Shown: positions 5,301-33,842 of the stretch, in pieces
Position numbering within the stretch: position 1 is the first letter of the stretch
Layout: each line of letters starts with the position of its first letter
Assembly: GCA_947568835.1 (NCBI GenBank)
Contig: CANOQG010000002.1
Span: forward strand, 620,001 to 684,000
From: Protonemura montana
Taxonomy: Eukaryota; Arthropoda; Insecta; Plecoptera; Nemouridae
DNA length: 64,000 nucleotides
Reading direction: 5' to 3'
Made by a program: the position numbers and the translations under genes
The notes under the pieces: generated by a model
The model's input: only the letters and a program-made list of their open reading frames with translations
What the model was told of the DNA's origin: nothing
The model's database searches: none

Positions 5301-8037
5301 TCACGTGGAAGTGAGCCATGGGAACGCCCAGCACGTGCCTCTTGGTGAGATCAGACATGAGCTCCTTGAGTTTAAGTTGGAATACTCGCGCGGTGAGATC
5401 GGGTCGGTCTTCTGCCCTTTCGTACGCCGCTAGGCTCGTCTGAATCTCAGGCCACTTCGGATTACACGTCATAGTAAGGAAAAGATCGGGTTTTCCAAAC
5501 TTGGTGACGATACTCATAGCGTCTTGATATAGCTGCTGGCAATGCCTGGGGCTTCCGATGAAACTGGAAGGCAGAATCACCATCTTCCCGACATTGCAGC
5601 CCTGCCGCTCAGCACGGTTCGCCAAGTGGTCCATGAGCCCACTGTAGAGTTCGGCGCGCAGCGTTTTCTGGTTCCTGATGACGAACTCAAGGCGATTGCC
5701 CTCAACCTTGATATAGGCGTCTACCATAAACTGCTGCGTCAGCTTGCCGGCGTGCAGCACTGGATGGAAGGCGCCGACACGCTCGTGGAGTCGATGGCTA
5801 TAAAACTCCATTAGAGTGACGACGCTGTGCTTAGATTGCCTGGTGTGCGGCATACCTCGTTGCCAGCCGGGTTCTCCACGCGGGAACAACAGCACGTAGC
5901 TGAGCGGATCCGTGTTGGGCGACAGGACAGACAGCTGCTCAATAAATCCGCCACGAGTATGGATACGAATATCACGTCCTAGAGGAGGCATGCCACCGTC
6001 AACGCTCTGATAGACAACGGCCACCTCGTGGGCCGTAGGATTTTCGTACAGCCGCCGTCGGTCATCCACGAAACGCAGTTCGGCCATGACCTCGGGTCGC
6101 CCCTCGGCAGCTGCACGTATCCTGTCGTCGGCCTCCACCTGACCTAACGTTTTAAGCCCTTGGGCAAAAGGATTTATTTCGCGAACCAGCGCGTCCAGCT
6201 CATGAAGCAGGTTGGGTAGCAGATTAGCATTCTGGCGCCTGTCCATTCGATGCGTCTTCGCTTGTTCCGCGTCAAGAAAGTACAGGTGCGAATAGAGGGG
6301 CTTCTGCACCGCCTGCCCCATATGGCCGATCCTATGCTGGATGTTGCCATGGACACGAAAACAGTATGTGCCACGGCCCTGGGGGATGTCCGTCTTAACT
6401 CCGACTGAAGCGAAGGAGAGCGAACTGTTGTACGACCGGATGTTTTTGCGGAAGTTCTTAGACTCGCAATGGTCTCCGGTCAGCAACGCATGCATTAAAT
6501 CGGGATACGCGAGGAGAGGCTCGAGGATTACGTTGCCCGAGTGACAACAGAGTTTGTAAATTTTGTCAGAAGGACGCTCTCCTGCGAAGTACAGAGCGCC
6601 GCACACCCTGCATACTTCGTCCATGCTGCCGCAGTGAAATACGGCGACGCCAGTGACGTCTTGCCGGGCAGCCTCCAAGTGCAAAGGGTGAAGGTTCACT
6701 GGAGCAAGATCAGGTTCGAACTGATCGTCTGCCACGTCAATTGCCTCGACCACGACTCGCTGGCTTTGCTCTAGTTCAGCCTCTTGGGCGCGTTGAGACG
6801 CCTCCTCCTCAGCGCGCTGAGAGACTTCCACTTCGAACGCCGCGAGCTGATCCCTGGTCTCGGCATTTCGACGCTGCTGAGATCGCTCCCGCGCGGCGAC
6901 TATACGGCTCTCGCGCGCCTCTGGAGTCTCATGCTGCCTTTCAGACTGCGTTTGAACTGCCTTCTGGCTTAATCGCTGAAGGCGCTGTTCCTCAGATTCG
7001 TCACTCAAGCGGCGACGCTTGGACTCTGCCATAAGGGCTAGTCGCTGAAGGCGCTGTTGGTCAGCTTCGTCACTCAAGCGGCGACGCTCTGACTCTGCCT
7101 TAAGGGCTAGTCGCTGAAGGCGCTGTTCGTCAGCTTCGTTACTCAAGCGGCGACGCTTTGACTCTGCCTTAAGGGCTAGTCGCTGAAGGCGCTGTTCGTC
7201 AGCTTCGTCACTCAAGTGGCGACGCTTTGACTCTGCCTTAAGGGCTAGTCGCTGAAGGCGCTGTTGGTCAGCTTCGTCACTCAAGCGGCGACGCTCTGCC
7301 TCAGCCTTAAGGGCCAATCGCTGAAGGCGCTGTTGGTCAGCTTCGCCACTCAAGCGGCGACGCTCTGCCTCTGCCTTAAGGGCCAGTCGCTGAAGGCGCT
7401 GTTCTTCCGTACATTTTGCCAAGCGGAGGCGCTCAGACTCAGCCTTTTCAGCAAGAAGCTGTAGGCGTCGTCCCTCAGAAGCTTCGTCTAGTCGTCGACG
7501 CTTCGACTCGGCAACCTGGGCCAGACGCAGAAGACGCTGGGCCTCATCCTCAGCCTTTCTGCGCTGGCGAGCATTTCTAGCTTTTTCCGCTAGTCGGGCA
7601 CTCCGTTCGTTTGCTGCTACTTGCACATTCTTGTCCTCTTGTAGCTGGCCAACTGAATTTTCCAGGATCTGAGTCTGGTCAAGGGATGGGAGTCCAGATG
7701 GCACATTGTCTGGAAATGAATGCATATAGCGGCTTGTAGAGGGTTGATCATAAAAAGCTGGAATAAAAGCGGGGGCGGCCTGTTCTAATAATGAATCATG
7801 CTTTAAGACACTCACCGGGGCTTCTCTGAGAACAGCGGAAATAAAAGGACGCTGCTCGTCAAGCGTCGACGTCGACGGGCTAGCAGTCGCCTGATGGTCG
7901 GCGTGCTCGGCCGTCTCTCTCGTCCTCGCTCTCTCGTCAGCAGCAGCCCTTTTCTTCGCCGCCGCGCTCTCCGCTCTTGCCGTTGCACCTTTCCCGCCCT
8001 TCCGAGACGTCAGATTTACACGCTTCTTGGGTGGCAT
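2356..8037 (-). CDS. RepHel: Helitron Rep endonuclease / Pif1-like helicase, copy 1 (1893 aa)
   Basis: This is the only plausible protein-coding gene of the element, probably nuclear, catalysing nicking, strand transfer and unwinding in rolling-circle transposition. A basic N-terminus (MPPKKR) precedes a charged coiled coil at about 150-375 built of 23-residue units. A CxxC pair (C476, C479) followed by a CC pair begins a zinc-finger-like segment. The Helitron_like_N region includes DPLSYVLLFPRGEPGW. The HUH motif is H922-A-H924 in EFQKRGLPHAHIL. The two Rep tyrosines are Y1057 and Y1061 in KYLCKYVYKG. The helicase has Walker A GPGGSGKT (1406-1413), Walker B D1486-E1487 in LDEGPM, and C-terminal INKAQGQS and YVALSRARS motifs. 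No RPA, OTU or endonuclease domain is recognised. All catalytic residues are present and the frame is unbroken, so it may be active. The ATG follows an apparent splice acceptor directly; an upstream coding exon cannot be excluded. Confidence 0.95.
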   Translation of the reverse strand: MPPKKRVNLTSRKGGKGATARAESAAAKKRAAADERARTRETAEHADHQATASPSTSTLDEQRPFISAVLREAPVSVLKHDSLLEQAAPAFIPAFYDQPSTSRYMHSFPDNVPSGLPSLDQTQILENSVGQLQEDKNVQVAANERSARLAEKARNARQRRKAEDEAQRLLRLAQVAESKRRRLDEASEGRRLQLLAEKAESERLRLAKCTEEQRLQRLALKAEAERRRLSGEADQQRLQRLALKAEAERRRLSDEADQQRLQRLALKAESKRRHLSDEADEQRLQRLALKAESKRRRLSNEADEQRLQRLALKAESERRRLSDEADQQRLQRLALMAESKRRRLSDESEEQRLQRLSQKAVQTQSERQHETPEARESRIVAARERSQQRRNAETRDQLAAFEVEVSQRAEEEASQRAQEAELEQSQRVVVEAIDVADDQFEPDLAPVNLHPLHLEAARQDVTGVAVFHCGSMDEVCRVCGALYFAGERPSDKIYKLCCHSGNVILEPLLAYPDLMHALLTGDHCESKNFRKNIRSYNSSLSFASVGVKTDIPQGRGTYCFRVHGNIQHRIGHMGQAVQKPLYSHLYFLDAEQAKTHRMDRRQNANLLPNLLHELDALVREINPFAQGLKTLGQVEADDRIRAAAEGRPEVMAELRFVDDRRRLYENPTAHEVAVVYQSVDGGMPPLGRDIRIHTRGGFIEQLSVLSPNTDPLSYVLLFPRGEPGWQRGMPHTRQSKHSVVTLMEFYSHRLHERVGAFHPVLHAGKLTQQFMVDAYIKVEGNRLEFVIRNQKTLRAELYSGLMDHLANRAERQGCNVGKMVILPSSFIGSPRHCQQLYQDAMSIVTKFGKPDLFLTMTCNPKWPEIQTSLAAYERAEDRPDLTARVFQLKLKELMSDLTKRHVLGVPMAHFHVIEFQKRGLPHAHILVILRDEDKIRTPEEVDALICAELPDPVTEERLHKVIVSSMIHGPCGARNMSSVCMEDGKCKKKFPKSFTDVTVVNEGGFTVYRRRESGQTHSISGRVVDNRDVVPYNKYLSSKFDCHLNIEHCGSAKTVKYLCKYVYKGHDCARVQLRVSVPAEGDHEPRPAHGAQQELVWDEVSQFIDSRYVSPQEAAWRIFGFEMHEKSHTIIRLAIHLEGDHMVTFRPGDEEAAAERGRAALTTLTAWFALNSSNPAARQYKYIDIPYHFRFEGKAWKPRKRGAGSIISRMYSVTPRQIERYHLRLLLLHVAGATSFEDVRTFQGRVYATFKEAAIARNLLMDDDEWQKCLQEVVAIKMPNELRQLFAIICAFCQPLDPLSLWERFKGDFCEDFAREHDPIEAEQLALNSIQSVLALHRLTNAEIGLPAPRVPVIVAVNEQFDQTAKREEAEENLVKLNGRQRVAFDAVMAAIDDPNAEQRCFYLDGPGGSGKTFLYNTLISTLRARGERAVAVAWTGIAATLLKGGRTCHSRFRLPVPIVENSTSGVKPNSAEGASLRAAKVIILDEGPMAPLLALNVIERTLRDVTNDERPFGGKVIVIGGDFRQCLPVVRNGNRTTIVEQCIKRGALWSLFRTLELRANMRANPGEVEFVEWLLRVGNGEILNDCHLPDDTIALPVQCVVDCVIDAVFGTSISAAEMAVMQDHAILCPKNVESLNINDNVLERLEGDVFEYCSADTVDVSEGEDGDVLATDYPVEYLNSLTPSGMPPHKLRLKVHAIVMLMRNVNVRAGLCNGTRLSVVALHEHVIDCRIIGGRCAGRRTFLCRVNLTPSDIGMPFTMTRRQFPIRLAFAMTINKAQGQSLKRVGIHLEKPVFGHGQLYVALSRARSLDSIFVAVAGNEAQGKLIVSSNTTFTKNIVYQEVLEIHAPNHQAADPSSRSGYQEADQQALEQSLSQLAVSDADEEVPMDTSSS
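6985..7398 (-). repeat. In-frame 69-bp repeat coding 23-aa coiled-coil units, 6 units (copy 1)
   Basis: Six full units start at 7398, 7329, 7260, 7191, 7122 and 7053 (residues 214, 237, 260, 283, 306 and 329). A partial seventh starts at 6984. Each unit begins RLQRLALKAE and ends near SDEADEQ. Two diverged units of the same 23-residue length precede them at residues 168 and 191. The heptad-like pattern of Leu and Ala among Arg, Glu and Lys predicts a long charged coiled coil. Confidence 0.9.
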
Positions 8038-15438: not shown

Positions 15439-15840
15439 GACATGCAAGGATTCATGCAAGGATCAACTGTGTTGGATAGGTAGGATGCATTGTTCAGTTT
15501 TTAGACTGATGCAATGCTATCATGCTTGGTGGTTAGTTGGTTTGACATTCCAAGATGGAATCAAGAAGAGAGATGCAAGGATTCATGCAAGGATCAACTG
15601 TGTCGGATAGGTGGGATGCATTGTTCAGTTTTTAGACTGATGCAATGCTATCATGCTTGGTGGTTAGTTGGTTTGACATTCCAAGATAGAATCAAGAAGA
15701 GAGATGCAAGGATTCATGCAAGGATCAACTGTGTCGGATAGGTGGGATGCATTGTTCAGTTTTTAGACTGGTATAATGCTGTCATGCTTGGTTGGTAGTT
15801 GGTTTGACATTCCAAGATAGAATCAAGAAGAGAGAAACAT
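15439..15840. repeat. 131-bp tandem repeat, 3 units (copy 2)
   Basis: Three units share diagnostic variants with copy 3 (for example TTGGATAGG in the first unit, GGTGGGATGC in later ones) and differ from copy 1. Confidence 0.85.
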
Positions 15841-15896
15841 GCAGTAAAAAGACCGACACGAAAGTAAGATTGTGACCTTAAAAAAATTGCAAACAT

Positions 15897-16130
15897 GCAG
15901 ATAGAAAACAGCAGGTTGCATAACTATTAACTTCTTACTAACCAACTTCTACTACTTACTACTTAGTAACTACTTTACTAAATCTACGATATGTTTTTTT
16001 ATTTTTATTTTTTTTTTGGAACATGCATGACATGCAGATAGAAAACAGCAGGCTGCATTTCTAATACTATAAGTTAGAAGTAACTACTTTACTAAATGTA
16101 TGTACAGTATTATTTTTTTTAATTTTTTTT
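15897..16130. repeat. Poly-T tandem repeat, shortened form (copy 2)
   Basis: There is about one and a half units of the CAGATAGAAAACAGCAGG repeat. It ends in a second T-rich run and the sequence AAACAGCATTCAAATTTG, which copies 1 and 4 lack. Confidence 0.75.
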
Positions 16131-16449
16131 TAAACAGCATTCAAATTTGAAGTACCTTTACCAAATCAATTAATTTACATGCATTATTGTCTAGCTCTAA
16201 GAGGAGCAGTTCCGTTAGAGTGTCCACATGCGAGCGCAATGGTCGTGAAGTTAAAGGGCTATGCGGCGTCCGGTGCTTTAAACCTGCAGCAGAAAAGCGT
16301 GTCAGCATGGTGAAATATATGGGAATTGGGTTGCTACCTGCCGTGCTAGTCACGGTTCCTGGTCTGCCCTACCTAGCCTTACTGAATTTAAATTTATCTA
16401 GGAAATGTTACCGCTATTGCAAATGTAAGGGATAGTACAATGATGGGAT

Positions 16450-19400
16450 TTAGGAGGAGGAGGTGTCCATTGGAACTTCTTCATCCGCATCCGATACAGC
16501 GAGTTGACTAAGCGACTGCTCAAGGGCCTGCTGGTCAGCCTCTTGATAGCCACTACGCGAGGAAGGATCCGCTGCCTGGTGGTCCGGCGCATGAATCTCG
16601 AGCACCTCCTGGTACACGATGTTCTTGGTGAAGGTGGTGTTGCTCGAGACGATCAACTTGCCCTGCGCCTCGTTACCGGCGACTGCCACGAAGATCGAGT
16701 CCAAAGAGCGAGCCCGAGAAAGCGCCACGTATAGCTGACCGTGTCCGAATACTGGTTTTTCTAAATGAATTCCCACCCTCTTTAAAGATTGACCCTGGGC
16801 TTTGTTGATGGTCATGGCGAATGCCAGACGGATCGGAAACTGGCGCCTTGTCATCGTAAAGGGCATGCCAATGTCCGAGGGAGTTAAGTTGACTCTACAT
16901 AGGAAAGTGCGTCGTCCCGCACAGCGCCCTCCGATGATCCTGCAGTCGATCACGTGCTCGTGGAGTGCTACAACGCTTAGTCGAGTCCCATTGCATAGGC
17001 CGGCTCTCACGTTGACGTTCCTCATGAGCATCACGATTGCATGAACTTTCAGACGAAGCTTGTGCGGTGGCATCCCGGATGGCGTTAATGAATTTAGATA
17101 TTCTACGGGATAATCGGTAGCCAAAACGTCGCCATCTTCGCCTTCACTGACATCGACAGTGTCGGCGCTGCAGTATTCGAACACGACACCTTCGAGGCGC
17201 TCAAGAACGTTGTCATTGATGTGCAAAGACTCCACGTTCTTCGGGCAGAGGATGGCATGGTCTTGCATCACGGCCATCTCGGCAGCACTAATGCTCGTGC
17301 CGAAGACGGCGTCAATGACGCAGTCCACGACGCATTGGACAGGTAATGCGATGGTGTCATCCGGGAGGTGGCAGTCATTCAAAATCTCTCCGTTTCCGAC
17401 ACGCAAGAGCCACTCGACGAACTCTACTTCGCCTGGGTTGGCGCGCATGTTCGCGCGCAGCTCGAGGGTGCGGAACAACGACCAAAGCGCGCCACGCTTA
17501 ATGCATTGCTCGACAATGGTCGTTCGGTTGCCATTTCGAACGACTGGGAGGCACTGCCTAAAATCCCCGCCGATAACGATCACCTTTCCGCCGAACGGAC
17601 GCTCATCGTTGGTCACGTCTCTTAGCGTCCGCTCGATCACGTTCAGGGCCAGCAGAGGCGCCATGGGTCCTTCATCCAAGATGATGACCTTGGCCGCCCT
17701 CAGCGAAGCGCCCTCGGCGGAGTTGGGCTTCACGCCAGACGTGCTGTTTTCCACAATCGGAACAGGCAATCGAAATCGCGAGTGGCAGGTCCTCCCTCCC
17801 TTCAGTAACTTCGCCGCAATGCCCGTCCACGCGACGGCCACGGCTCGCTCGCCTCGGGCTCGCAGCGTGCTGATGAGGGTGTTGTATAGGAAGGTCTTCC
17901 CGCTGCCGCCTGGGCCGTCCAGGTAGAAGCACCTCTGCTCGGCGTTCGGGTCGTCGATTGCTGCCATCACCGCGTCGAATGCCACGCGCTGCCTGCCGTT
18001 GAGCTTCACCAAGTTCTCCTCGGCCTCTTCCCTTTCGGCGGTCTGGTCGAACTGCTCGTCGACAGCAACGATGACTGGCACTCGAGGCGCCGGCAAACCG
18101 ATTTCGGCGTTGGTCAGGCGGTGTAGGGCAAGGACGGACTGGATGGAATTCAGGGCCAACTGTTCTGCCTCGATGGGGTCGTGTTCTCGGGCGAAATCTT
18201 CGCAGAAATCGCCCTTGAAACGCTCCCACAGAGACAGCGGGTCAAGAGGCTGACAGAACGCGCAAATGATGGCAAACAGCTGACGAAGTTCGTTTGGCAT
18301 CTTTATAGCAACCGCCTCCTGCAGACATTTCTGCCACTCGTCGTCGTCCATAAGCAGGTTGCGTGCCACGGCAGCTTCCTTGAAGGTAGCGTAAACCCTA
18401 CCCTTGAACGTGCGCACGTCCTCGAATGAGGTGGCGCCGGCGACGTGTAGCAAAAGGAGACGAAGATGGTATCGCTCGATCTGCCGGGGCGTCACGGAGT
18501 ACATTCGGCTGATGATGGAGCCGGCACCTCGCTTTCGTGGCTTCCACGCTTTGCCCTCGAAACGGAAGTGGTACGGGATGTCGATGTACTTGTACTGCCG
18601 TGCCGCCGGGTTGCTACTATTCAGCGCAAACCATGCCGTCAGCGTAGTCAGCGCAGCCCTGCCGCGTTCTGCTGCGGCTTCCTCGTCTCCAGGACGGAAC
18701 GTGACCATGTGGTCACCCTCGAGGTGGATCGCCAAACGGATGATAGTGTGCGACTTTTCGTGCATTTCAAATCCGAAAATTCTCCACGCAGCCTCTTGGG
18801 GACTCACGTAGCGAGAGTCGATGAACTGTGAGACCTCGTCCCACACCAACTCTTGCTGGGCACCGTGCGCTGGACGTGGCTCACGATCGCCCTCCGCGGG
18901 GACAGAGACGCGGAGCTGGACCCTGGCACAGTCGTGACCTTTGTACACGTACTTGCACAGGTACTTGACCGTCTTCGCGGATCCACAGTGCTCGATGTTC
19001 AGGTGGCAGTCAAACTTGGAGCTTAAGTACTTGTTGTAAGGCACTACGTCTCGGTTGTCGACCACTCTTCCTGAGATGGAATGCGTCTGCCCGCTCTCTC
19101 GACGGCGATAGACGGTGAAACCCCCCTCGTTGACCACAGTCACATCTGTGAACGACTTGGGGAACTTCTTCTTACACTTTCCGTCCTCCATGCACACAGA
19201 GGACATGTTCCGAGCGCCGCACGGGCCGTGGATCATCGACGACACGATGACCTTGTGCAGTCTCTCCTCGGTCACCGGATCGGGCAACTCGGCACAGATA
19301 AGTGCGTCTACCTCCTCGGGAGTGCGGATCTTGTCCTCGTCGCGAAGGATTACCAGGATGTGAGCGTGAGGGAGTCCACGTTTTTGGAACTCGATCACGT

Positions 19401-22131
19401 GGAAGTGAGCCATGGGAACGCCCAGCACGTGCCTCTTGCTGAGATCAGACATGAGCTCCTTGAGTTTAAGTTGGAATACTCGCGCGGTGAGATCGGGTCG
19501 GTCTTCTGCCCTTTCGTACGCCGCTAGGCTCGTCTGAATCTCAGGCCACTTCGGATTACACGTCATAGTAAGGAAAAGATCGGGTTTTCCAAACTTGGTG
19601 ACGATACTCATAGCGTCTTGATATAGCTGCTGGCAATGCCTGGGGCTTCCGATGAAACTGGAAGGCAGAATCACCATCTTCCCGACATTGCAGCCCTGCC
19701 GCTCAGCACGGTTCGCCAAGTGGTCCATGAGCCCACTGTAGAGTTCGGCGCGCAGCGTTTTCTGGTTCCTGATGACGAACTCAAGGCGATTGCCCTCAAC
19801 CTTGATATAGGCGTCTACCATAAACTGCTGCGTCAGCTTGCCGGCGTGCAGCACTGGATGGAAGGCGCCGACACGCTCGTGGAGTCGATGGCTATAAAAC
19901 TCCATGAGAGTGACGACGCTGTGCTTAGATTGCCTGGTGTGCGGCATACCTCGTTGCCAGCCGGGTTCTCCACGCGGGAACAACAGCACGTAGCTGAGCG
20001 GATCCGTGTTGGGCGACAGGACAGACAGCTGCTCAATAAATCCGCCACGAGTATGGATACGAATATCACGTCCTAGAGGAGGCATGCCACCGTCAACGCT
20101 CTGATAAACAACGGCCACCTCATGGGCCGTAGGATTTTCGTACAGCCGCCGTCGGTCATCCACGAAACGCAGTTCGGCCATGACCTCGGGTCGCCCCTCG
20201 GCAGCTGCACGGATCCTGTCGTCGGCCTCCACCTGACCTAGCGTTTTAAGCCCTTGGGCAAAAGGATTTATTTCGCGAACCAGCGCGTCCAGCTCATGAA
20301 GCAGGTTGGGTAGCAGATTAGCATTCTGGCGCCTGTCCATTCGATGCGTCTTCGCTTGTTCCGCGTCAAGAAAGTACAGGTGCGAATAGAGGGGCTTCTG
20401 CACCGCCTGCCCCATATGGCCGATCCTATGCTGGATGTTGCCATGGACACGAAAACAGTATGTGCCACGGCCCTGGGGGATGTCCGTCTTAACTCCGACT
20501 GAAGCGAAGGAGAGCGAACTGTTGTACGACCGGATGTTTTTGCGGAAGTTCTTAGACTCGCAATGGTCTCCGGTCAGCAACGCATGCATTAAATCGGGAT
20601 ACGCGAGGAGAGGCTCGAGGATTACGTTGCCCGAGTGACAACAGAGTTTGTAAATTTTGTCAGAAGGACGCTCTCCTGCGAAGTACAGAGCGCCGCACAC
20701 CCTGCATACTTCGTCCATGCTGCCGCAGTGAAATACGGCGACGCCAGTGACGTCTTGCCGGGCAGCCTCCAAGTGCAAAGGGTGAAGGTTCACTGGAGCA
20801 AGATCAGGTTCGAACTGATCGTCTGCCACGTCAATTGCCTCGACCACGACTCGCTGGCTTTGCTCTAGTTCAGCCTCTTGGGCGCGTTGAGACGCCTCCT
20901 CCTCAGCGCGCTGAGAGACTTCCACTTCGAACGCCGCGAGCTGATCCCTGGTCTCGGCATTTCGACGCTGCTGAGATCGCTCCCGCGCGGCGACTATACG
21001 GCTCTCGCGCGCCTCTGGAGTCTCATGCTGCCTTTCAGACTGCGTTTGAACTGCCTTCTGGCTTAATCGCTGAAGGCGCTGTTCCTCAGATTCGTCACTC
21101 AAGCGGCGACGCTTGGACTCTGCCATAAGGGCTAGTCGCTGAAGGCGCTGTTGGTCAGCTTCGTCACTCAAGCGGCGACGCTCTGACTCTGCCTTAAGGG
21201 CTAGTCGCTGAAGGCGCTGTTCGTCAGCTTCGTTACTCAAGCGGCGACGCTTTGACTCTGCCTTAAGGGCTAGTCGCTGAAGGCGCTGTTCGTCAGCTTC
21301 GTCACTCAAGTGGCGACGCTTTGACTCTGCCTTAAGGGCTAGTCGCTGAAGGCGCTGTTGGTCAGCTTCGTCACTCAAGCGGCGACGCTCTGCCTCAGCC
21401 TTAAGGGCCAATCGCTGAAGGCGCTGTTGGTCAGCTTCGCCACTCAAGCGGCGACGCTCTGCCTCTGCCTTAAGGGCCAGTCGCTGAAGGCGCTGTTCTT
21501 CCGTACATTTTGCCAAGCGGAGGCGCTCAGACTCAGCCTTTTCAGCAAGAAGCTGTAGGCGTCGTCCCTCAGAAGCTTCGTCTAGTCGTCGACGCTTCGA
21601 CTCGGCAACCTGGGCCAGACGCAGAAGACGCTGGGCCTCATCCTCAGCCTTTCTGCGCTGGCGAGCATTTCTAGCTTTTTCCGCTAGTCGGGCACTCCGT
21701 TCGTTTGCTGCTACTTGCACATTCCTCTCCTCTTGTAGCTGGCCAACTGAATTTTCCAGGATCTGAGTCTGGTCAAGGGATGGGAGTCCAGATGGCACAT
21801 TGTCTGGAAATGAATGCATATAGCGGCTTGTAGAGGGTTGATCATAAAAAGCTGGAATAAAAGCGGGGGCGGCCTGTTCTAATAATGAATCATGCTTTAA
21901 GACACTCACCGGGGCTTCTCTGAGAACAGCGGAAATAAAAGGACGCTGCTCGTCAAGCGTCGACGTCGACGGGCTAGCAGTCGCCTGATGGTCGGCGTGC
22001 TCGGCCGTCTCTCTCGTCCTCGCTCTCTCGTCAGCAGCAGCCCTTTTCTTCGCCGCCGCGCTCTCCGCTCTTGCCGTTGCACCTTTCCCGCCCTTCCGAG
22101 ACGTCAGATTTACACGCTTCTTGGGTGGCAT
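16450..22131 (-). CDS. RepHel, copy 2 (1893 aa)
   Basis: This copy has the same length and domain order as copy 1: coiled coil at about 150-375, CxxC at 476-479, HUH at 922-924, tyrosines 1057 and 1061, Walker A 1406-1413 and Walker B 1486-1487. The frame is unbroken. It differs from copy 1 at roughly a dozen residues. One is in the helicase: IAAKLL replaces IAATLL shortly after Walker A, near motif Ia, where copies 1, 3 and 4 all have Thr. Residue 898 is Ser. Whether the Thr-to-Lys change affects helicase activity is unknown. Confidence 0.95.
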   Translation of the reverse strand: MPPKKRVNLTSRKGGKGATARAESAAAKKRAAADERARTRETAEHADHQATASPSTSTLDEQRPFISAVLREAPVSVLKHDSLLEQAAPAFIPAFYDQPSTSRYMHSFPDNVPSGLPSLDQTQILENSVGQLQEERNVQVAANERSARLAEKARNARQRRKAEDEAQRLLRLAQVAESKRRRLDEASEGRRLQLLAEKAESERLRLAKCTEEQRLQRLALKAEAERRRLSGEADQQRLQRLALKAEAERRRLSDEADQQRLQRLALKAESKRRHLSDEADEQRLQRLALKAESKRRRLSNEADEQRLQRLALKAESERRRLSDEADQQRLQRLALMAESKRRRLSDESEEQRLQRLSQKAVQTQSERQHETPEARESRIVAARERSQQRRNAETRDQLAAFEVEVSQRAEEEASQRAQEAELEQSQRVVVEAIDVADDQFEPDLAPVNLHPLHLEAARQDVTGVAVFHCGSMDEVCRVCGALYFAGERPSDKIYKLCCHSGNVILEPLLAYPDLMHALLTGDHCESKNFRKNIRSYNSSLSFASVGVKTDIPQGRGTYCFRVHGNIQHRIGHMGQAVQKPLYSHLYFLDAEQAKTHRMDRRQNANLLPNLLHELDALVREINPFAQGLKTLGQVEADDRIRAAAEGRPEVMAELRFVDDRRRLYENPTAHEVAVVYQSVDGGMPPLGRDIRIHTRGGFIEQLSVLSPNTDPLSYVLLFPRGEPGWQRGMPHTRQSKHSVVTLMEFYSHRLHERVGAFHPVLHAGKLTQQFMVDAYIKVEGNRLEFVIRNQKTLRAELYSGLMDHLANRAERQGCNVGKMVILPSSFIGSPRHCQQLYQDAMSIVTKFGKPDLFLTMTCNPKWPEIQTSLAAYERAEDRPDLTARVFQLKLKELMSDLSKRHVLGVPMAHFHVIEFQKRGLPHAHILVILRDEDKIRTPEEVDALICAELPDPVTEERLHKVIVSSMIHGPCGARNMSSVCMEDGKCKKKFPKSFTDVTVVNEGGFTVYRRRESGQTHSISGRVVDNRDVVPYNKYLSSKFDCHLNIEHCGSAKTVKYLCKYVYKGHDCARVQLRVSVPAEGDREPRPAHGAQQELVWDEVSQFIDSRYVSPQEAAWRIFGFEMHEKSHTIIRLAIHLEGDHMVTFRPGDEEAAAERGRAALTTLTAWFALNSSNPAARQYKYIDIPYHFRFEGKAWKPRKRGAGSIISRMYSVTPRQIERYHLRLLLLHVAGATSFEDVRTFKGRVYATFKEAAVARNLLMDDDEWQKCLQEAVAIKMPNELRQLFAIICAFCQPLDPLSLWERFKGDFCEDFAREHDPIEAEQLALNSIQSVLALHRLTNAEIGLPAPRVPVIVAVDEQFDQTAEREEAEENLVKLNGRQRVAFDAVMAAIDDPNAEQRCFYLDGPGGSGKTFLYNTLISTLRARGERAVAVAWTGIAAKLLKGGRTCHSRFRLPVPIVENSTSGVKPNSAEGASLRAAKVIILDEGPMAPLLALNVIERTLRDVTNDERPFGGKVIVIGGDFRQCLPVVRNGNRTTIVEQCIKRGALWSLFRTLELRANMRANPGEVEFVEWLLRVGNGEILNDCHLPDDTIALPVQCVVDCVIDAVFGTSISAAEMAVMQDHAILCPKNVESLHINDNVLERLEGVVFEYCSADTVDVSEGEDGDVLATDYPVEYLNSLTPSGMPPHKLRLKVHAIVMLMRNVNVRAGLCNGTRLSVVALHEHVIDCRIIGGRCAGRRTFLCRVNLTPSDIGMPFTMTRRQFPIRLAFAMTINKAQGQSLKRVGIHLEKPVFGHGQLYVALSRARSLDSIFVAVAGNEAQGKLIVSSNTTFTKNIVYQEVLEIHAPDHQAADPSSRSGYQEADQQALEQSLSQLAVSDADEEVPMDTSSS
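21079..21492 (-). repeat. In-frame 69-bp coiled-coil repeat, 6 units (copy 2)
   Basis: The unit number and order match copy 1 exactly, including the single SGEAD and single SNEAD variants. This agrees with a recent common origin of copies 1 and 2 in this segment. Confidence 0.9.
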
Positions 22132-22158
22132 CTGTGTGAAGAAAGCGAGGCTTTAGTA
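22132..22158 (-). promoter_or_regulatory. Candidate 3' splice site before RepHel ATG (copy 2)
   Basis: CTTTCTTCACACAG abuts the ATG and TACTAAA is at 22152-22158, identical to copy 1. Confidence 0.5.
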
Positions 22159-22204
22159 ATGCCTAGCGTCGCCGAGCTGAAGCGGAGCGTGGCTGAGCAC
22201 GAAC

Positions 22205-22854
22205 CAACCGCCATGTTTTGTAAAAATGACCTCACTCAAATATCATGCCAGGCTAAATGTATGCTTTAATATGCACAACAATCACTTCAGTTTCTTTACA
22301 AAGAAATATGCTAATTTGCTTCGAATGCGAGCTTGGACGCCATGTTGAACACACTTCTAATTGTTGGAACGGTGGGCATGGGTGGGTTGGGGAGGGGGAT
22401 GAGAATCGCGTCGAGCGATTGCATCATGTTACGTAAAAGTGACGTCATGGAAATATCCACAAGACGGGCAAAATGTATGCTTTCCAGTCTTGATGATGAA
22501 AGATAATTTTAATAATAATTTAGAAGCTAAACGCTATAAAATCACTATAAATAATTGAATCACTTGATGATATTAGTGGTTGACTATTACTGGATATTGT
22601 GACATGCAAATTAAATCTGAAATAAGATTACCTTGAATAGCGACGGAATTCTTCCCCACAAGAGTGTTTCGCCGTGTAGGTAATCCGCACTCTCATGCTA
22701 GACTAACTGCTTTAGCAAATGGCGGTTGGCGAGCTTTGGGAGTGTGACTAATTGCCGAGCGTGGATGCCGATCAAAAAGCGCTAAACCAACTACCCGCTA
22801 CGTAAAATGACGTCACGCAAATTCAAACTTTTACACCACGCGCGACGATTTGAA
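22205..22854 (-). promoter_or_regulatory. CRE-type leader modules (copy 2)
   Basis: TGACGTCA is at 22440-22447 and 22808-22815, each next to TACGTAAAA, with the degenerate third module nearer the ATG. Spacing is the same as in copy 1. Confidence 0.45.
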
Positions 22855-23037
22855 TTACGTGCCATAAGAAGCTGTCGATGCTACACGCTGTAAATGAATG
22901 AAGTCAGAAGTCAAATTATTGCGGACAGTGATCATAATAATGTGTCTTTAGAGGTTAGCTTATTAATTACGGTTTAAATCATTACTAAATATATCTGAAA
23001 ACTCATTAAAGAAACACAATTGAACACAAAATGTGCA

Positions 23038-23787
23038 CCTGTGCCTTTTTAAAGCCTTTCATGGGACCACCACCCAAAGAACTAAGAAAATGAATAAGAA
23101 AATATAGTTTTTGGCCCTTTCGATTTAAATAAGCATTTTGCCAAACATAATATGCAAACAAACAAACACAAAATATGCAATAAAAATACAATTTGTACGC
23201 CTGTAAAAAACCATACAATACCAATGAATACCATTGAATAACATTTCCATACAATATCATAGAATACCATAGAATACCATACAATACAATACCATACAAA
23301 ACCATACAATTTCATATAAAACCATAGATTGCGTATTTGGATTAGATTTGATAAAACTGCACTCTGTCATTAATGACGTTTTGAATTTAAATACCTGTTG
23401 AATGATCACGGCAGACTCGAAAATAAAATAAATATCCACGGCGTCCTGAGTCGATGAAAAACATCCATCAAATGTTTATCTTTGATCTGTCAATGTCACT
23501 TTAAATCTAGTTTTGGCAAAATTATCAATAAAAAACTAATCAAGTGTGTCTTAGTTGTTGAAAAAACTATATTTTATGCCTGTAAAGCTTGCGAAATCCG
23601 TTAAAGTTACTGATAATTTGCATTAATGCCGCAAATATCATTGATCGCTTGGAATCAACTGCGTGATCTTGTCTAGGCTGGGGATGGAGTAAAATCGTCG
23701 TATTTTAAAGAATTTTTTGTCTTTTGTATACAATACAATAAAATAAAATATTTATATTTAATATTTATACATATTACATGCAATACG
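23038..23787 (-). repeat. Decamer-element fragment in the leader of copy 2
   Basis: This is the same insert as in copy 1 at an offset of 14094, with the short decamer run at about 23204-23324. Confidence 0.7.
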
Positions 23788-24541
23788 TAAAAATACGATT
23801 TTTACGCCTGTTATAAGTCAAACTTTTTCCTAACTCACCTGTTTCCTTTGAAGTTTAATTTAAAATCCTGTTTAAATCGCCGTATCCCATCAACTCACCT
23901 TAAAAATGTCGCGTTTCATAAAGTGCTTAGAAGTCAGGTACAAATGATAACCATTTCCTGTCGTTTTTGACAGATTTTCGCCAGAAACAAAGGGGTTTTA
24001 GTTGAGAGTTTGACATTTCAACCCATTTTGACGTTTAATTTGGCCTGATGATCCACTGCTGAAAAGATACATTCACGATTTCGTACACCTTGCCGTGGTG
24101 TCAAAATAGCAAACAATTGATCAAAGCTGTCAGTTTATTAGCAAAATTAATTCTTTTTGCACTTAAAACGATCGCAATTGAATGTGTTTTCGCTCAATTA
24201 CATCAACAACTTTAATACGAATGCATGAAAAATCACCGTGGAGCTCGAGGCTAGAAAAACTTGAGTATTAAAAGAATTATAATATCGAGCTGCATCGCCT
24301 GGCTCTGAGATATCTTGCCGTCATATTTAGCAACTTTTCACCATGAAAACGCTTTCAAATCGCTGTGAAAATGTCGCCTGCCAATGGAAAAGTTAATACC
24401 GAAAAATTCTAGCCCATTTTCGTACGTTTTGAGTCTCATTTCACAATTTCCATAACCAGTAGAGCGGCCGGTTACATCCCAGCCAGCCATCCACCCACCC
24501 ATATACCCACAAACTAAAAAGTTGAACATCACAATTTTAAA

Positions 24542-24554
24542 GCTTTTATATAAG
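24542..24554 (-). promoter_or_regulatory. TATA box at the 5' terminus of copy 2
   Basis: CTTATATAAAAGC on the minus strand, just inside the TTAACC end and next to the 3' CTAG of copy 3. Confidence 0.45.
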
Positions 24555-24571
24555 GTTAACTAGCAGTACCC

Positions 24572-24587
24572 GATGCCTAACGGCACC
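24572..24587 (-). terminator. Helitron 3' terminal hairpin (copy 3)
   Basis: GGTGCC-GTTA-GGCATC on the minus strand, 12 nt (including CTAG) from the element end at 24560. Confidence 0.8.
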
Positions 24588-25419
24588 TGTTGTTCTTATC
24601 CCTAGTGGTTTTATTTTAGTATATTAGTATTGTCTTTGAACTTGGATTAACAATTACAATAGCTCACTACTATTTTTCTAGTACCCTATGCCCATAGGGC
24701 ATATGCCGATAGGATAGATCATGACAAAAATATATGGGCCTAGGCCAAAATCTAGTCCCTAAGCCCTGGGATCGAACTGAGACTTTACACTTAATGTAGC
24801 CTCTACGCATACATTTAAGAAACTTTTATGGGACAACAAAATAAAGTACTGAGAAAATGTCAAGAAAACAAAGTATTATGCCATTACGACTTGATGTACC
24901 ATACTATACCTGATTTCCGCCAGTACCTTCAACGATGATGGCTAACCAGCAGCATTGCTTATAAGGACACAACCATTTGGTGTGCTTTTTGGACAGAAAG
25001 GAATCATTACAAATATTTTTGGTTTGGTTTCAGTGACGAAGGTTTTTTTTTTTGAAGATTAAACAAAAAAAAATGTACCTATTAATTATTGTAATTTTTA
25101 TTTGCCAATATTATGATCATTCTTACAAATATAAGAAATATTCACATGTTTACGACGATTTGCGTTGAAAACTTTGACCATTTGAAAGCAACAGTCAATG
25201 CAGACCTGCCATGTCGCAGTATCGCCACTGTTCATTCGTAATTGAAAGTAATCTCCGCAATGGTGCCATGAAGAAGTTCCTTCTCCACGATTGGCAGGGG
25301 GAGGGGGTCTAAAACAAAATAAAAATAGACGGCAAGAGAGAGGCACCATTCTTGGAGAAATGAAAAGTTTCTAAATGTATTCAAGCTGTTAAGTGAGAGA
25401 ATTTTAAAAATATTTGTTA

Positions 25420-25446
25420 TGCCGGGGCCCCCATCCCGCCCCGGCA
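25420..25446. repeat. GC-rich hairpin in the 3' region (copy 3)
   Basis: Stem TGCCGGGGC/GCCCCGGCA with a 9-nt loop. Confidence 0.75.
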
Positions 25447-25537
25447 GCATGGCGATCGTCGCACACTACATCGCCTCTGCCTTACACTATCAAAGATTGT
25501 GCAGCCCGTTGCAAGCAACAGGAATCTCTGATGTGCG

Positions 25538-25939
25538 GACATGCAAGGATTCATGCAAGGATCAACTGTGTTGGATAGGTAGGATGCATTGTTCAGTTTT
25601 TAGACTGATGCAATGCTATCATGCTTGGTGGTTAGTTGGTTTGACATTCCAAGATGGAATCAAGAAGAGAGATGCAAGGATTCATGCAAGGATCAACTGT
25701 GTCGGATAGGTGGGATGCATTGTTCAGTTTTTAGACTGATGCAATGCTATCATGCTTGGTGGTTAGTTGGTTTGACATTCCAAGATAGAATCAAGAAGAG
25801 AGATGCAAGGATTCATGCAAGGATCAACTGTGTCGGATAGGTGGGATGCATTGTTCAGTTTTTAGACTGGTATAATGCTGTCATGCTTGGTTGGTAGTTG
25901 GTTTGACATTCCAAGATAGAATCAAGAAGAGAGAAACAT
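25538..25939. repeat. 131-bp tandem repeat, 3 units (copy 3)
   Basis: Three units, nearly base-identical to copy 2. Confidence 0.85.
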
Positions 25940-25995
25940 GCAGTAAAAAGACCGACACGAAAGTAAGATTGTGACCTTAAAAAAATTGCAAACAT

Positions 25996-26230
25996 GCAGA
26001 TAGAAAACAGCAGGTTGCATAACTATTAACTTCTTACTAACCAACTTCTACTACTTACTACTTAGTAACTACTTTACTAAATCTACGATATGTTTTTTTA
26101 TTTTTATTTTTTTTTTGGAACATGCATGACATGCAGATAGAAAACAGCAGGCTGCATTTCTAATACTATAAGTTAGAAGTAACTACTTTACTAAATGTAT
26201 GTACAGTATTATTTTTTTTTATTTTTTTTT
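25996..26230. repeat. Poly-T tandem repeat, shortened form (copy 3)
   Basis: Same arrangement as copy 2, with a one-base length difference in the final T-rich run. Confidence 0.75.
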
Positions 26231-26549
26231 TAAACAGCATTCAAATTTGAAGTACCTTTACCAAATCAATTAATTTACATGCATTATTGTCTAGCTCTAA
26301 GAGGAGCAGTTCCGTTAGAGTGTCCACATGCGAGCGCAATGGTCGTGAAGTTAAAGGGCTATGCGGCGTCCGGTGCTTTATACCTGCAGCAGAAAAGCGT
26401 GTCAGCATGGTGAAATATATGGGAATTGGGTTGCTACCTGCCGTGCTAGTCACGGTTCCTGGTCTGCCCTACCTAGCTTTACTGAATTTAAATTTATCTA
26501 GGAAATGTTACCGCTATTGCAAATGTAAGGGATAGTACAATGATAGGAT

Positions 26550-29500
26550 TTAGGAGGAGGAGGTGTCCATTGGAACTTCTTCATCCGCATCCGATACAGC
26601 GAGTTGACTAAGCGACTGCTCAAGGGCCTGCTGGTCAGCCTCTTGATAGCCACTACGCGAGGAAGGATCCGCTGCCTGGTGGTCCGGCGCATGAATCTCG
26701 AGCACCTCCTGGTACACGATGTTCTTGGTGAAGGTGGTGTTGCTCGAGACGATCAACTTGCCCTGCGCCTCGTTACCGGCGACTGCCACGAAGATCGAGT
26801 CCAAAGAGCGAGCCCGAGAAAGCGCCACGTATAGCTGACCGTGTCCGAATACTGGTTTTTCTAAATGAATTCCCACCCTCTTTAAAGATTGACCCTGGGC
26901 TTTATTGATGGTCATGGCGAATGCCAGACGGATCGGAAACTGGCGCCTTGTCATCGTAAAGGGCATGCCAATGTCCGAGGGAGTTAGGTTGACTCTACAT
27001 AGGAAAGTGCGTCGTCCCGCACAGCGCCCTCCGATGATCCTGCAGTCGATCACGTGCTCGTGGAGTGCAACAACGCTGAGTCGAGTCCCATTGCATAGGC
27101 CGGCTCTCACGTCGACGTTCCTCATGAGCATCACGATTGCATGAACTTTCAGACGAAGCTTGTGCGGTGGCATCCCGGATGGCGTTAATGAATTTAGATA
27201 TTCTACGGGATAATCGGTAGCCAAAACGTCGCCATCTTCGCCTTCACTGACATCGACAGTGTCGGCGCTGCAGTATTCGAACACGTCACCTTCGAGGCGC
27301 TCAAGAACGTTGTCATTGATGTTCAAAGACTCCACGTTCTTCGGGCAGAGGATGGCATGGTCTTGCATCACGGCCATCTCGGCAGCACTAATGCTCGTGC
27401 CGAAGACGGCGTCAATGACGCAGTCCACGACGCATTGGACAGGTAATGCGATGGTGTCATCCGGGAGGTGGCAGTCATTCAAAATCTCGCCGTTTCCGAC
27501 ACGCAAGAGCCACTCGACGAACTCTACTTCGCCTGGGTTGGCGCGCATGTTCGCGCGCAGCTCGAGGGTGCGGAACAACGACCAAAGCGCGCCACGCTTA
27601 ATGCATTGCTCGACTATGGTCGTTCGGTTGCCATTTCGAACGACTGGGAGGCACTGCCTAAAATCCCCGCCAATAACGATCACCTTTCCGCCGAACGGAC
27701 GCTCATCGTTTGTCACGTCTCTTAGCGTCCGCTCGATCACGTTCAGGGCCAGCAGAGGCGCCATGGGTCCTTCATCCAAGATGATGACCTTGGCCGCCCT
27801 CAGCGAAGCGCCCTCGGCGGAGTTGGGCTTCACGCCAGACGTGCTGTTTTCCACAATCGGAACAGGCAATCGAAATCGCGAGTGGCAGGTCCTCCCTCCC
27901 TTCAGTAACGTCGCCGCAATGCCCGTCCACGCGACGGCCACGGCTCGCTCGCCTCGGGCTCGCAGCGTGCTGATGAGGGTGTTGTATAGGAAGGTCTTCC
28001 CGCTGCCGCCCGGGCCGTCCAGGTAGAAGCACCTCTGCTCGGCGTTCGGGTCGTCGATTGCTGCCATCACCGCGTCGAATGCCACGCGCTGCCTGCCGTT
28101 GAGCTTCACCAAGTTCTCCTTGGCCTCTTCCCTTTCGGCGGTCTGGTCGAACTGCTCGTCGACAGCAACGATGACTGGCACTCGAGGCGCCGGCAAACCG
28201 ATTTCGGCGTTGGTCAGGCGGTGTAGGGCAAGGACGGACTGGATGGAATTCAGGGCCAACTGTTCTGCCTCGATGGGGTCGTGTTCTCGGGCGAAATCTT
28301 CGCAGAAATCGCCCTTGAAACGCTCCCATAGAGACAGCGGGTCAAGAGGCTGACAGAACGCGCAAATGATAGCAAACAGCTGACGAAGTTCGTTTGGCAT
28401 CTTTATAGCAACCGCCTCCTGCAGACATTTCTGCCACTCGTCGTCGTCCATTAGCAGGTTGCGTGCCACGGCAGCTTCCTTGAAGGTAGCGTAAACCCTA
28501 CCCTGGAACGTGCGCACGTCCTCGAATGAGGTGGCGCCGGCGACGTGAAGCAAAAGGAGACGAAGATGGTATCGCTCGATCTGCCGGGGCGTCACGGAGT
28601 ACATTCGGCTGATGATGGAGCCGGCACCTCGCTTACGTGGCTTCCACGCTTTGCCCTCGAAACGGAAGTGGTACGGGATGTCGATGTACTTGTACTGCCG
28701 TGCCGCCGGGTTGCTACTATTCAGCACAAACCATGCCGTCAGCGTAGTCAGCGCAGCCCTGCCGCGTTCTGCTGCGGCTTCCTCGTCTCCAGGACGGAAC
28801 GTGACCATGTGGTCACCCTCGAGGTGGATCGCCAAACGGATGATAGTGTGCGACTTTTCGTGCATTTCAAATCCGAAAATTCTCCACGCAGCCTCTTGGG
28901 GACTCACGTAGCGAGAGTCGATGAACTGTGAGACCTCGTCCCACACCAACTCTTGCTGGGCACCGTGCGCTGGACGTGGCTCATGATCGCCCTCCGCGGG
29001 GACAGAGACGCGGAGCTGGACCCTGGCACAGTCGTGACCTTTGTACACGTACTTGCACAGGTACTTGACCGTCTTCGCGGATCCACAGTGCTCGATGTTC
29101 AGGTGGCAGTCAAACTTGGAGCTTAAGTACTTGTTGTAAGGCACTACGTCTCGGTTGTCGACCACTCTTCCTGAGATGGTATGCGTCTGCCCGCTCTCTC
29201 GACGGCGATAGACGGTGAAACCCCCCTCGTTGACCACAGTCACATCTGTGAACGACTTGGGGAACTTCTTCTTACACTTTCCGTCCTCCATGCACACAGA
29301 GGACATGTTCCGAGCGCCGCACGGGCCGTGGATCATCGACGACACGATGACCTTGTGCAGTCTCTCCTCGGTCACCGGATCGGGCAACTCGGCACAGATA
29401 AGTGCGTCTACCTCCTCGGGAGTGCGGATCTTGTCCTCGTCGCGAAGGATTACCAGGATGTGGGCGTGAGGGAGTCCACGTTTTTGGAACTCGATCACGT

Positions 29501-32162
29501 GGAAGTGAGCCATGGGAACGCCCAGCACGTGCCTCTTGATGAGATCAGACATCAGCTCCTTGAGTTTAAGTTGGAATACTCGCGCGGTGAGATCGGGTCG
29601 GTCTTCTGCCCTTTCGTACGCCGCTAGGCTCGTCTGAATCTCAGGCCACTTCGGATTACACGTCATAGTAAGGAAAAGATCGGGTTTTCCAAACTTGGTG
29701 ACGATACTCATAGCGTCTTGATATAGCTGCTGGCAATGCCTGGGGCTTCCGATGAAACTGGAAGGCAGAATCACCATCTTCCCGACATTGCAGCCCTGCC
29801 GCTCAGCACGGTTCGCCAAGTGGTCCATGAGCCCACTGTAGAGTTCGGCGCGCAGCGTTTTCTGGTTCCTGATGACGAACTCAAGGCGATTTCCCTCAAC
29901 CTTGATATAGGCATCTACCATAAACTGCTGCGTCAGCTTGCCGGCGTGCAGCACTGGATGGAAGGCGCCGACACGCTCGTGGAGTCGATGGCTATAAAAC
30001 TCCATTAGAGTGACGACGCTGTGCTTAGATTGCCTGGTGTGCGGCATACCTCGTTGCCAGCCGGGTTCTCCACGCGGGAACAACAGCACGTAGCTGAGCG
30101 GATCCGTGTTGGGCGACAGGACAGACAGCTGCTCAATAAATCCGCCACGAGTATGGATACGAATATCACGTCCTAGAGGAGGCATGCCACCGTCAACGCT
30201 CTGATAAACAACGGCCACCTCGTGGGCCGTAGGATTTTCGTACAGCCGCCGTCGGTCATCCACGAAACGCAGTTCGGCCATGACCTCGGGTCGCCCCTCG
30301 GCAGCTGCACGGATCCTGTCGTCGGCCTCCACCTGACCTAGCGTTTTAAGCCCTTGGGCAAAAGGATTTATTTCGCGAACCAGCGCGTCCAGCTCATGAA
30401 GCAGGTTGGGTAGCAGATTAGCATTCTGGCGCCTGTCCATTCGATGCGTCTTCGCTTGTTCCGCGTCAAGAAAGTACAGGTGCGAATAGAGGGGCTTCTG
30501 CACCGCCTGCCCCATATGGCCGATCCTGTGCTGGATGTTGCCATGGACACGAAAACAGTATGTGCCACGGCCCTGGGGGATGTCCGTCTTAACTCCGACT
30601 GAAGCGAAGGAGAGCGAACTGTTGTACGACCGGATGTTTTTGCGGAAGTTCTTAGACTCGCAATGGTCTCCGGTCAGCAACGCATGCATTAAATCGGGAT
30701 ACGCGAGGAGAGGCTCAAGGATTACGTTGCCCGAGTGACAACAGAGTTTGTAAATTTTGTCAGAAGGACGCTCTCCTGCGAAGTACAGAGCGCCGCACAC
30801 CCTGCATACTTCGTCCATGCTGCCGCAGTGAAAGAGGGCGACGTCAGCGACGTCTTGCCGTGCAGCCTCCAAGTGGAAAGGATGAAGGTTCACTGGAGCA
30901 AGATCAGGTTCGAACTGATCGTCTGGCGCGTCAATAGCCTCGACCGCGACTCGCTGGCTTTGCTCTAGTTCAGCCTCTTGGGCGCGTTGAGACGCCTCCT
31001 CCTCAGCGCGCTGAGAGACTTCCACTTCGAACGCCGCGAGCTTATCCCTGGTCTCGGCATTTCGACGCTGCTGAGATTGCTCCCTCGCGGCGACTATACG
31101 GCTCTCGCGCGCCTCTGTAGTCTCATGCTGCCTTTCAGACTGCGTTTGAACTGCCTTCTGGCTTAATCGCTGAAGGCGCTGTTCCTCAGATTCGTCCCTT
31201 AAGCGGCGACGCTTGGACTCTGCCATAAGGGCTAGTCGCTGAAGGCGCTGTTCGTCAGCTTCGTCACTCAAGCGGCGACGCTCTGACTCTGCCTTAAGGG
31301 CTAGTCGCTGAAGGCGCTGTTCGTCAGCTTCGTCACTCAAGCGGCGACGCTTTGACTCTGCCTTAAGGGCAAGTCGCTGAAGGCGCTGTTCGTCAGCTTC
31401 GTCACTCAAGTGGCGACGCTTTGACTCTGCCTTAAGGGCAAGTCGCTGAAGGCGCTGTTGGTCAGCTTCGTCACTCAAGCGGCGACGCTCTGCCTCTGCC
31501 TTAAGGGCCAGTCGCTGAAGGCGCTGTTCTTCCGTACATTTTGCCAAGCGGAGGCGCTCAGACTCGGCCTTTTCAGCAAGAAGCTGTAGGCGTCGTCCCT
31601 CAGAAGCTTCGTCTAGTCGTCGACGCTTCGACTCGGCAACCTGGTCCAGACGCAGAAGACGCTGGGCCTCATTCTCAGCCTTTCTGCGCTGGCGAGCATT
31701 TTTAGCTTTTTCCGCTAGTCGGGCACTCCGTTCGTTTGCTGTTACTTGCACGTTCTTGTCCTCTTGGAGCTGGCCAACTGAATTTTCTAGGATCTGAGTT
31801 TGGTCAAGGGATGGGAGTACAGATGGCACATTGTCGGAAAAGGAATGCATATAGCGGCTTGTAGAGGGTTGATCATAAAAAGCTGGAAGAGAAGCGGGGG
31901 CGGCCTGTTCTAATAATGAATCATGCTTTAAGACACTCACCGGGGCTTCTTCGAGAATAGCGGAAAGAAAAGGACGCTGCTCGTCAAGCGTCGACGTCGA
32001 CGGGCTAGCAGTCGCCTGATGGTCGGCGTGCTCGGCCGTCTCTCTCGTCCTCGCTCTCTCGTCAGCAGCAGCCCTTTTCTTCGCCGCCGCGCTCTCCGCT
32101 CTTGCCGTTGCACCTTTTCCGCCTTTCCGAGACGTCAGATTTACACGCTTCTTAGGTGGCAT
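26550..32162 (-). CDS. RepHel, copy 3 (1870 aa)
   Basis: The frame is unbroken and exactly 23 residues shorter than copies 1 and 2, through loss of one coiled-coil unit. Key residues shift accordingly: HUH at 899-901, tyrosines 1034 and 1038, Walker A 1383-1390, Walker B 1463-1464. Residue 875 (equivalent to 898) is Ile. The N-terminal 470 residues differ more from copies 1 and 2 than the rest does (for example QRPFLSAILEEAP, AIDAPDD, DVADVALFHCG). Other single changes include a Val at WFVLNSS and EEAKEN before the helicase. All catalytic motifs are intact. Confidence 0.95.
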   Translation of the reverse strand: MPPKKRVNLTSRKGGKGATARAESAAAKKRAAADERARTRETAEHADHQATASPSTSTLDEQRPFLSAILEEAPVSVLKHDSLLEQAAPASLPAFYDQPSTSRYMHSFSDNVPSVLPSLDQTQILENSVGQLQEDKNVQVTANERSARLAEKAKNARQRRKAENEAQRLLRLDQVAESKRRRLDEASEGRRLQLLAEKAESERLRLAKCTEEQRLQRLALKAEAERRRLSDEADQQRLQRLALKAESKRRHLSDEADEQRLQRLALKAESKRRRLSDEADEQRLQRLALKAESERRRLSDEADEQRLQRLALMAESKRRRLRDESEEQRLQRLSQKAVQTQSERQHETTEARESRIVAAREQSQQRRNAETRDKLAAFEVEVSQRAEEEASQRAQEAELEQSQRVAVEAIDAPDDQFEPDLAPVNLHPFHLEAARQDVADVALFHCGSMDEVCRVCGALYFAGERPSDKIYKLCCHSGNVILEPLLAYPDLMHALLTGDHCESKNFRKNIRSYNSSLSFASVGVKTDIPQGRGTYCFRVHGNIQHRIGHMGQAVQKPLYSHLYFLDAEQAKTHRMDRRQNANLLPNLLHELDALVREINPFAQGLKTLGQVEADDRIRAAAEGRPEVMAELRFVDDRRRLYENPTAHEVAVVYQSVDGGMPPLGRDIRIHTRGGFIEQLSVLSPNTDPLSYVLLFPRGEPGWQRGMPHTRQSKHSVVTLMEFYSHRLHERVGAFHPVLHAGKLTQQFMVDAYIKVEGNRLEFVIRNQKTLRAELYSGLMDHLANRAERQGCNVGKMVILPSSFIGSPRHCQQLYQDAMSIVTKFGKPDLFLTMTCNPKWPEIQTSLAAYERAEDRPDLTARVFQLKLKELMSDLIKRHVLGVPMAHFHVIEFQKRGLPHAHILVILRDEDKIRTPEEVDALICAELPDPVTEERLHKVIVSSMIHGPCGARNMSSVCMEDGKCKKKFPKSFTDVTVVNEGGFTVYRRRESGQTHTISGRVVDNRDVVPYNKYLSSKFDCHLNIEHCGSAKTVKYLCKYVYKGHDCARVQLRVSVPAEGDHEPRPAHGAQQELVWDEVSQFIDSRYVSPQEAAWRIFGFEMHEKSHTIIRLAIHLEGDHMVTFRPGDEEAAAERGRAALTTLTAWFVLNSSNPAARQYKYIDIPYHFRFEGKAWKPRKRGAGSIISRMYSVTPRQIERYHLRLLLLHVAGATSFEDVRTFQGRVYATFKEAAVARNLLMDDDEWQKCLQEAVAIKMPNELRQLFAIICAFCQPLDPLSLWERFKGDFCEDFAREHDPIEAEQLALNSIQSVLALHRLTNAEIGLPAPRVPVIVAVDEQFDQTAEREEAKENLVKLNGRQRVAFDAVMAAIDDPNAEQRCFYLDGPGGSGKTFLYNTLISTLRARGERAVAVAWTGIAATLLKGGRTCHSRFRLPVPIVENSTSGVKPNSAEGASLRAAKVIILDEGPMAPLLALNVIERTLRDVTNDERPFGGKVIVIGGDFRQCLPVVRNGNRTTIVEQCIKRGALWSLFRTLELRANMRANPGEVEFVEWLLRVGNGEILNDCHLPDDTIALPVQCVVDCVIDAVFGTSISAAEMAVMQDHAILCPKNVESLNINDNVLERLEGDVFEYCSADTVDVSEGEDGDVLATDYPVEYLNSLTPSGMPPHKLRLKVHAIVMLMRNVDVRAGLCNGTRLSVVALHEHVIDCRIIGGRCAGRRTFLCRVNLTPSDIGMPFTMTRRQFPIRLAFAMTINKAQGQSLKRVGIHLEKPVFGHGQLYVALSRARSLDSIFVAVAGNEAQGKLIVSSNTTFTKNIVYQEVLEIHAPDHQAADPSSRSGYQEADQQALEQSLSQLAVSDADEEVPMDTSSS
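31179..31523 (-). repeat. In-frame 69-bp coiled-coil repeat, 5 units (copy 3)
   Basis: Five full units precede the partial last one. The unit with SGEAD found in copies 1 and 2 is missing, and the fifth unit carries RRRLRDESEEQ. The loss is exactly one unit and keeps the frame. Confidence 0.9.
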
Positions 32163-33825: not shown

Positions 33826-33842
33826 GTTAACTAGCAGTACCC

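Follow-up and report, generated by a model that had tools for sequence, protein, structure and literature searches.

How can one nucleotide of four closely related Helitron genes carry all four bases? The question is raised by a stretch of 64,000 nucleotides of the Protonemura montana genome (C7:620001-684000, contig CANOQG010000002.1; here called the window) that contains four RepHel open reading frames (ORFs). At the second position of codon 898 (numbering of copy 1), the plus strand reads G, C, A and T in copies 1 to 4, and the encoded residue is Thr, Ser, Ile or Asn (Table 1). Rereading of all positions and codons gave an exact match to the preliminary description of the site. The ORFs differ by 0.5-1.7% in pairwise comparison, which makes the earlier figure of about 1% a fair one. 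In their alignment of 5682 columns, 132 are variable, namely 131 with two states and a single one, the second position of codon 898, with four. The flanking sequence had been called the same in all copies; over 60 bases on each side this is not fully so, as copy 3 differs 14 bases away from the site.

The RepHel genes and their Rep domain

Pfam domains of the ORF comprise Helitron_like_N, PIF1, Pif1_2B and N-terminal STPRs. The Helitron-type Rep domain (PF14214, E 5.7e-61) covers residues 745-927 and is fused in one ORF to a Pif1-like helicase (PF05970, E 2.3e-56; PF21530, E 5.6e-18). As described previously, residue 898 is found 11 residues ahead of the HFH stretch, located in the translation as H909-F-H911. 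The HAH at 922-924 and the stretch KYLCKY, which we take to be the catalytic HUH and two-tyrosine motifs, are both present and both align with Helraiser. Helitrons carry TC at their 5' end and a hairpin followed by CTRR at their 3' end, and insert in AT. No clear CTRR end was seen at the limits of the shared unit.

Judged from its sequence, the protein is a canonical-looking Helitron RepHel with about 160 close copies, many of them in long arrays, an abundance that is counted among its differences from Helraiser. The likeness to Helraiser (PDB 7lcc) concerns the Rep domain with its HUH and two-tyrosine region (E 1.4e-144 over 458 query residues). Helraiser, compared over the Rep stretch only, differs in having Cys opposite Thr898, and the P. 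montana protein carries N-terminal STPR repeats in variable number. A tolerance of position 898 across families is suggested by this one solved relative with its Cys. Relatives were found neither in viral_contigs with the whole ORF as query nor in phages with the Rep stretch as query. A single-sequence AlphaFold model of the Rep domain had a mean pLDDT of 38.8 and was not used.

The ORF is full length in all eight copies with a derived base, so that the changes at the site leave the frame unbroken, and in 9 of 12 other fully read copies. The STPR repeats are 69 bases (23 aa) each, and their varying number results in ORFs of 1847-1893 aa in the window and in full-length ORFs of 1825-1916 aa elsewhere.

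Table 1. Features of the window and their coordinates.
Feature	Position	Strand	Details
RepHel ORF copy 1, 1893 aa	2356..8037	-	Site G, Thr898, ancestral; ORF and Pfam
RepHel ORF copy 2, 1893 aa	16450..22131	-	Site C, Ser; ORF and alignment
RepHel ORF copy 3, 1870 aa	26550..32162	-	Site A, Ile; ORF and alignment
RepHel ORF copy 4, 1847 aa	35771..41314	-	Site T, Asn; ORF and alignment
Codon 898 second position, copy 1	5345	-	G on plus strand, ACC
Equivalent position, copy 2	19439	-	C on plus strand, AGC; duplicate C8:607426 likewise C
Equivalent position, copy 3	29539	-	A on plus strand, ATC; duplicate C8:617394 likewise A
Equivalent position, copy 4	38760	-	T on plus strand, AAC; duplicate C8:626615 is G
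Block duplicated on C8 (603826-630000)	15840..42148		99.81-99.91% identity, three pieces read
STPR repeats, copies 1 to 4	6973-7404, 21067-21498, 31167-31529, 40388-40681
Codon 1018 of copy 1	4984-4986		Thr to Ser through position 1 in 15/44 copies, through position 2 in 1/44
Direct tandem duplication	49405-54841, 54853-60289		5437 bases, 99.963% identity
Arrays of a degenerate 10-base unit	10588-13203, 43164-45782, 52556-53884, 58004-59332, 60838-62374

Distribution and age of the four bases

The assembly (258 Mb, 34 contigs) was searched with a 33-base site in which any base was allowed at the variable position, and exact matches were counted. Genome-wide, 159 copies were obtained, 151 with G and eight with another base; the G state was seen for 97 of the 151 among the first 100 listed places and follows for the remainder from a listing that begins with the non-G copies. 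The eight are confined to C7 (639439 C, 649539 A and 658760 T, consecutive units that are the three derived copies of the window) and C8 (572320, 593340, 607426 and 745278, all C, and 617394 A). In all of them, the 13 or more bases next to the site on either side are unchanged. No extra non-G copy appeared when one further mismatch was allowed in the 27-base core, the total remaining 159. With up to three mismatches 172 copies were retrieved, and the base counts refer to the 159 exact ones, without the 13 that have 1-3 mismatches. The tally of bases across the genome covers this site, and other columns were compared in subsets of copies. The larger pool of variants that had been suggested as a source is found for C (five copies) and A (two), all of them on C7 or C8, but not for T, present in one copy only.

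Both scaffolds are rich in RepHel copies. C7 (925000 bases) has 51 exact copies among the first 100 of the 159 matches. On both scaffolds the many copies form blocks that switch strand; among the matches listed, these extend over 13.8-914.7 kb of C7 and, on C8 (890000 bases), from 181 kb as far as 783 kb or beyond. A degenerate pattern of the HUH region, starting with GAA, occurs at 13 places with identical letters, two of which are known RepHel copies.

A segmental duplicate on C8 allowed dating of the base changes. C8:603826-613726, 613794-623694 and 623695-630000 are 99.85, 99.91 and 99.81% identical to successive parts of the window block; these values cover the pieces read and leave out 67 C8 bases between two of them, which face 200 window bases. 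The site bases in the duplicate are, in order, C, A and G. As C and A are present in the blocks of both scaffolds, both alleles predate the block duplication, and T is younger than it. The T copy (C7_658k) and its C8 counterpart (C8_626k) show 5 differences in 5.6 kb. When seven other copies are considered, C7_658k alone differs at the third position of codon 545 and at the site, codon 372 being ambiguous, and at the site it is the derived member of the pair. Four different bases need at least three substitutions, here of different ages, which bears out the earlier claim of repeated changes at one second-codon position.

Over about 6.1 kb, any two of the C, A and T copies of the window are separated by 85-105 differences. 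For most C and A copies a partner exists at 4-14 differences; that nearest to C8_745k is at 30. In parallel, the five C copies are separated from one another by at most 14 differences, except for C8_745k at 30-35. A G copy on C5 (C5_20946k) shows only 2 differences from the window C copy (C7_639k) over the 5.69 kb ORF, one of which is the site. That so similar a copy has G implies that the site has either changed once more or undergone gene conversion by a G copy; a converted stretch would lie between the clade markers at -467 and +1034.

Trees were built without C8_626k. The tree of the whole stretch places the T copy as sister to the two A copies (support 0.926); all three join the C group (0.757), which also holds the G copies C7_625k and C5_20946k. 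In the core tree, the T copy groups with C7_716k (0.759) and the A copies with C8_403k (0.809), C7_625k falls outside the C group, and the T, A and C lineages are separated on weak support (0.76-0.88). This conflict is as expected from recombination between copies. The T, A and C lineages may therefore not be fully independent as judged from these trees; the count of bases still demands three substitutions.

Chance expectation and competing explanations

The preliminary description held that uniform mutation would very rarely produce such a column, and for one window this is supported. When the branch events are derived from the four window copies themselves, these copies are expected to show 0.00062 (uniform rates) to 0.028 (gamma 0.25) four-state columns in the ORF, and 0.00007 to 0.0032, respectively, in the conserved core. 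Two larger sets deliberately contain all eight derived copies, together with 12 of the 151 G copies over the full ORF or 36 around the site, the latter hand-picked and non-random. The first (20 copies, 4212 core columns) has 125 two-state columns, one three-state column and the four-state column, against 0.0046-0.21 four-state columns expected. The second (44 copies, 1201 columns, C5_17369k being left out as it fails to align across the whole stretch) has 48 two-state columns and the four-state one. Among its 36 ancestral-state copies, 42 of 1201 columns are variable and none has three states. The many three- and four-state columns that had been named as a refutation were not seen in these sets, and with so few three-state columns it is less likely that rates vary strongly enough among sites to ease a triple hit.

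Extrapolation to 159 copies and 4212 core columns gives, from a coalescent to a star genealogy, 0.017-0.57 four-state columns with uniform rates, 0.10-3.4 with gamma 1 and 0.25-8.6 with gamma 0.5. The wide spread makes the extrapolation rough, and on this rough basis a four-state column somewhere among the 159 copies ranges from unremarkable to moderately unusual. If only chance is at work, the oddity of the window (less than 1 in 1000 with uniform rates) thus shrinks once the whole repeat family is counted, and the site serves as an example in which a segmental duplicate dates each base change.

The explanation that we favour, with a probability of about 0.6, is recurrent substitution at a tolerated Rep residue, multiplied by duplication and exchange in the arrays and requiring no special mechanism. 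An ancestral ACC (Thr, G on the plus strand) would have changed to AGC, ATC and AAC at separate times. The spread of the C and A alleles would then be due not to transposition but to segmental duplication, unequal exchange and short gene conversion, and conversion is possibly also the source of the G in C5_20946k. With many copies and a tolerant residue, three hits would be rare yet plausible. This reading is drawn from the purifying selection on the core, the 17 codons with shared nonsynonymous alleles described below, the intact ORFs and the lack of a hairpin or mutable context. The window probably stood out because all three derived alleles adjoin in it. Their side-by-side position is poorly explained by recurrent substitution and is left as an odd remainder. 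The chance that three derived copies are consecutive on C7 is 0.24% (3 of 51 exact copies drawn), and 0.70% for any four consecutive copies. These low values are partly a selection effect, since windows with such clusters get noticed, and local relatedness of copies may contribute to the clustering.

It is unlikely, in our estimation, that residue 898 is instead recurrently altered, through selection on Rep or a mutable base, with a minimum of three hits, perhaps four or five, in a young array; a second hit was seen at almost no other core column of the copies read. Recurrent change of 898 in relatives would make it a functional or mutational hot position of the Helitron Rep. Diversifying selection had been proposed. 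In this or a copy-specific form, by which the loss of Thr would alter Rep activity or allow escape from a host or self interaction, selection appears distinctly improbable. The three derived alleles are all nonsynonymous, no synonymous change was found at codon 898 in 44 copies, the eight derived copies have intact ORFs and at codon 1018, too, Ser replaced Thr through two distinct codon changes. Nevertheless, any change at the second position of codon 898 is nonsynonymous and gives by itself no sign of selection. Moreover, the RepHel core is under purifying selection overall, with a pN/pS of (53/3225)/(77/987) = 0.21 from 53 nonsynonymous alleles at 3225 sites and 77 synonymous ones at 987 sites in 20 copies, and 898, with two such alleles, is one of 17 codons at which at least 2 of the 20 copies share a nonsynonymous allele. 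The restriction of derived alleles to 8 of 159 copies on two scaffolds fits duplication.

A hypermutable base, another of the earlier proposals, or a persistent lesion copied repeatedly during rolling-circle replication would leave different bases in successive tandem copies, as is the case for the three consecutive derived ones. The site is also among the few differences in the pairs C7_658k/C8_626k and C5_20946k/C7_639k, and the whole-stretch tree places T next to A. Multiallelic variation is attributed to persisting lesions in a study of lesion segregation (PMC11186772), and the likeness to it is that related lineages have more than two bases at the same site. However, one lesion predicts otherwise identical copies of the same age, whereas the RepHel copies have diverged by 0.5-1.7% and T arose later than C and A; a single rolling-circle lesion event was rejected on these grounds. 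A hairpin hot spot was rejected, since local folding is no stabler than that of shuffled sequences on either strand (z 0.33 and -0.86); the site is weakly paired in the best plus-strand fold only and unpaired in the centroid folds. A motif hot spot was rejected as well, because one of the seven CACCA contexts of the core is polymorphic in 20 copies, the site itself, and the other six are invariant. A mutable base or lesion is thus given a very low probability. In addition, a diverged donor that would have converted the site to the three alleles was looked for in a narrow search, and none was found.

An error of assembly or base calling in a collapsed or badly resolved repeat, at least for the lone T, is about equally hard to believe. 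T is found in one copy only, and C7 and C8 are repeat-rich scaffolds of round length. On the contrary, five copies have C and two have A, across two scaffolds and with other linked differences, and it would be odd for miscalls at a single position to yield three different bases.

Neighbouring repeats

Other repeats were observed in this genome and in the window. Five-unit TTAGG has 15,571 overlapping matches in the genome, which are internal on C1 among the matches listed, and no three-unit TTAGG run occurs within the 64 kb of the window. Beyond the RepHel genes, the window contains a nearly perfect direct tandem duplication and five long arrays whose degenerate unit has 10 bases. These arrays sit between or beside the Helitrons; the unit of the first is AATACCATAG, and the others read have the same leading 10-mers.
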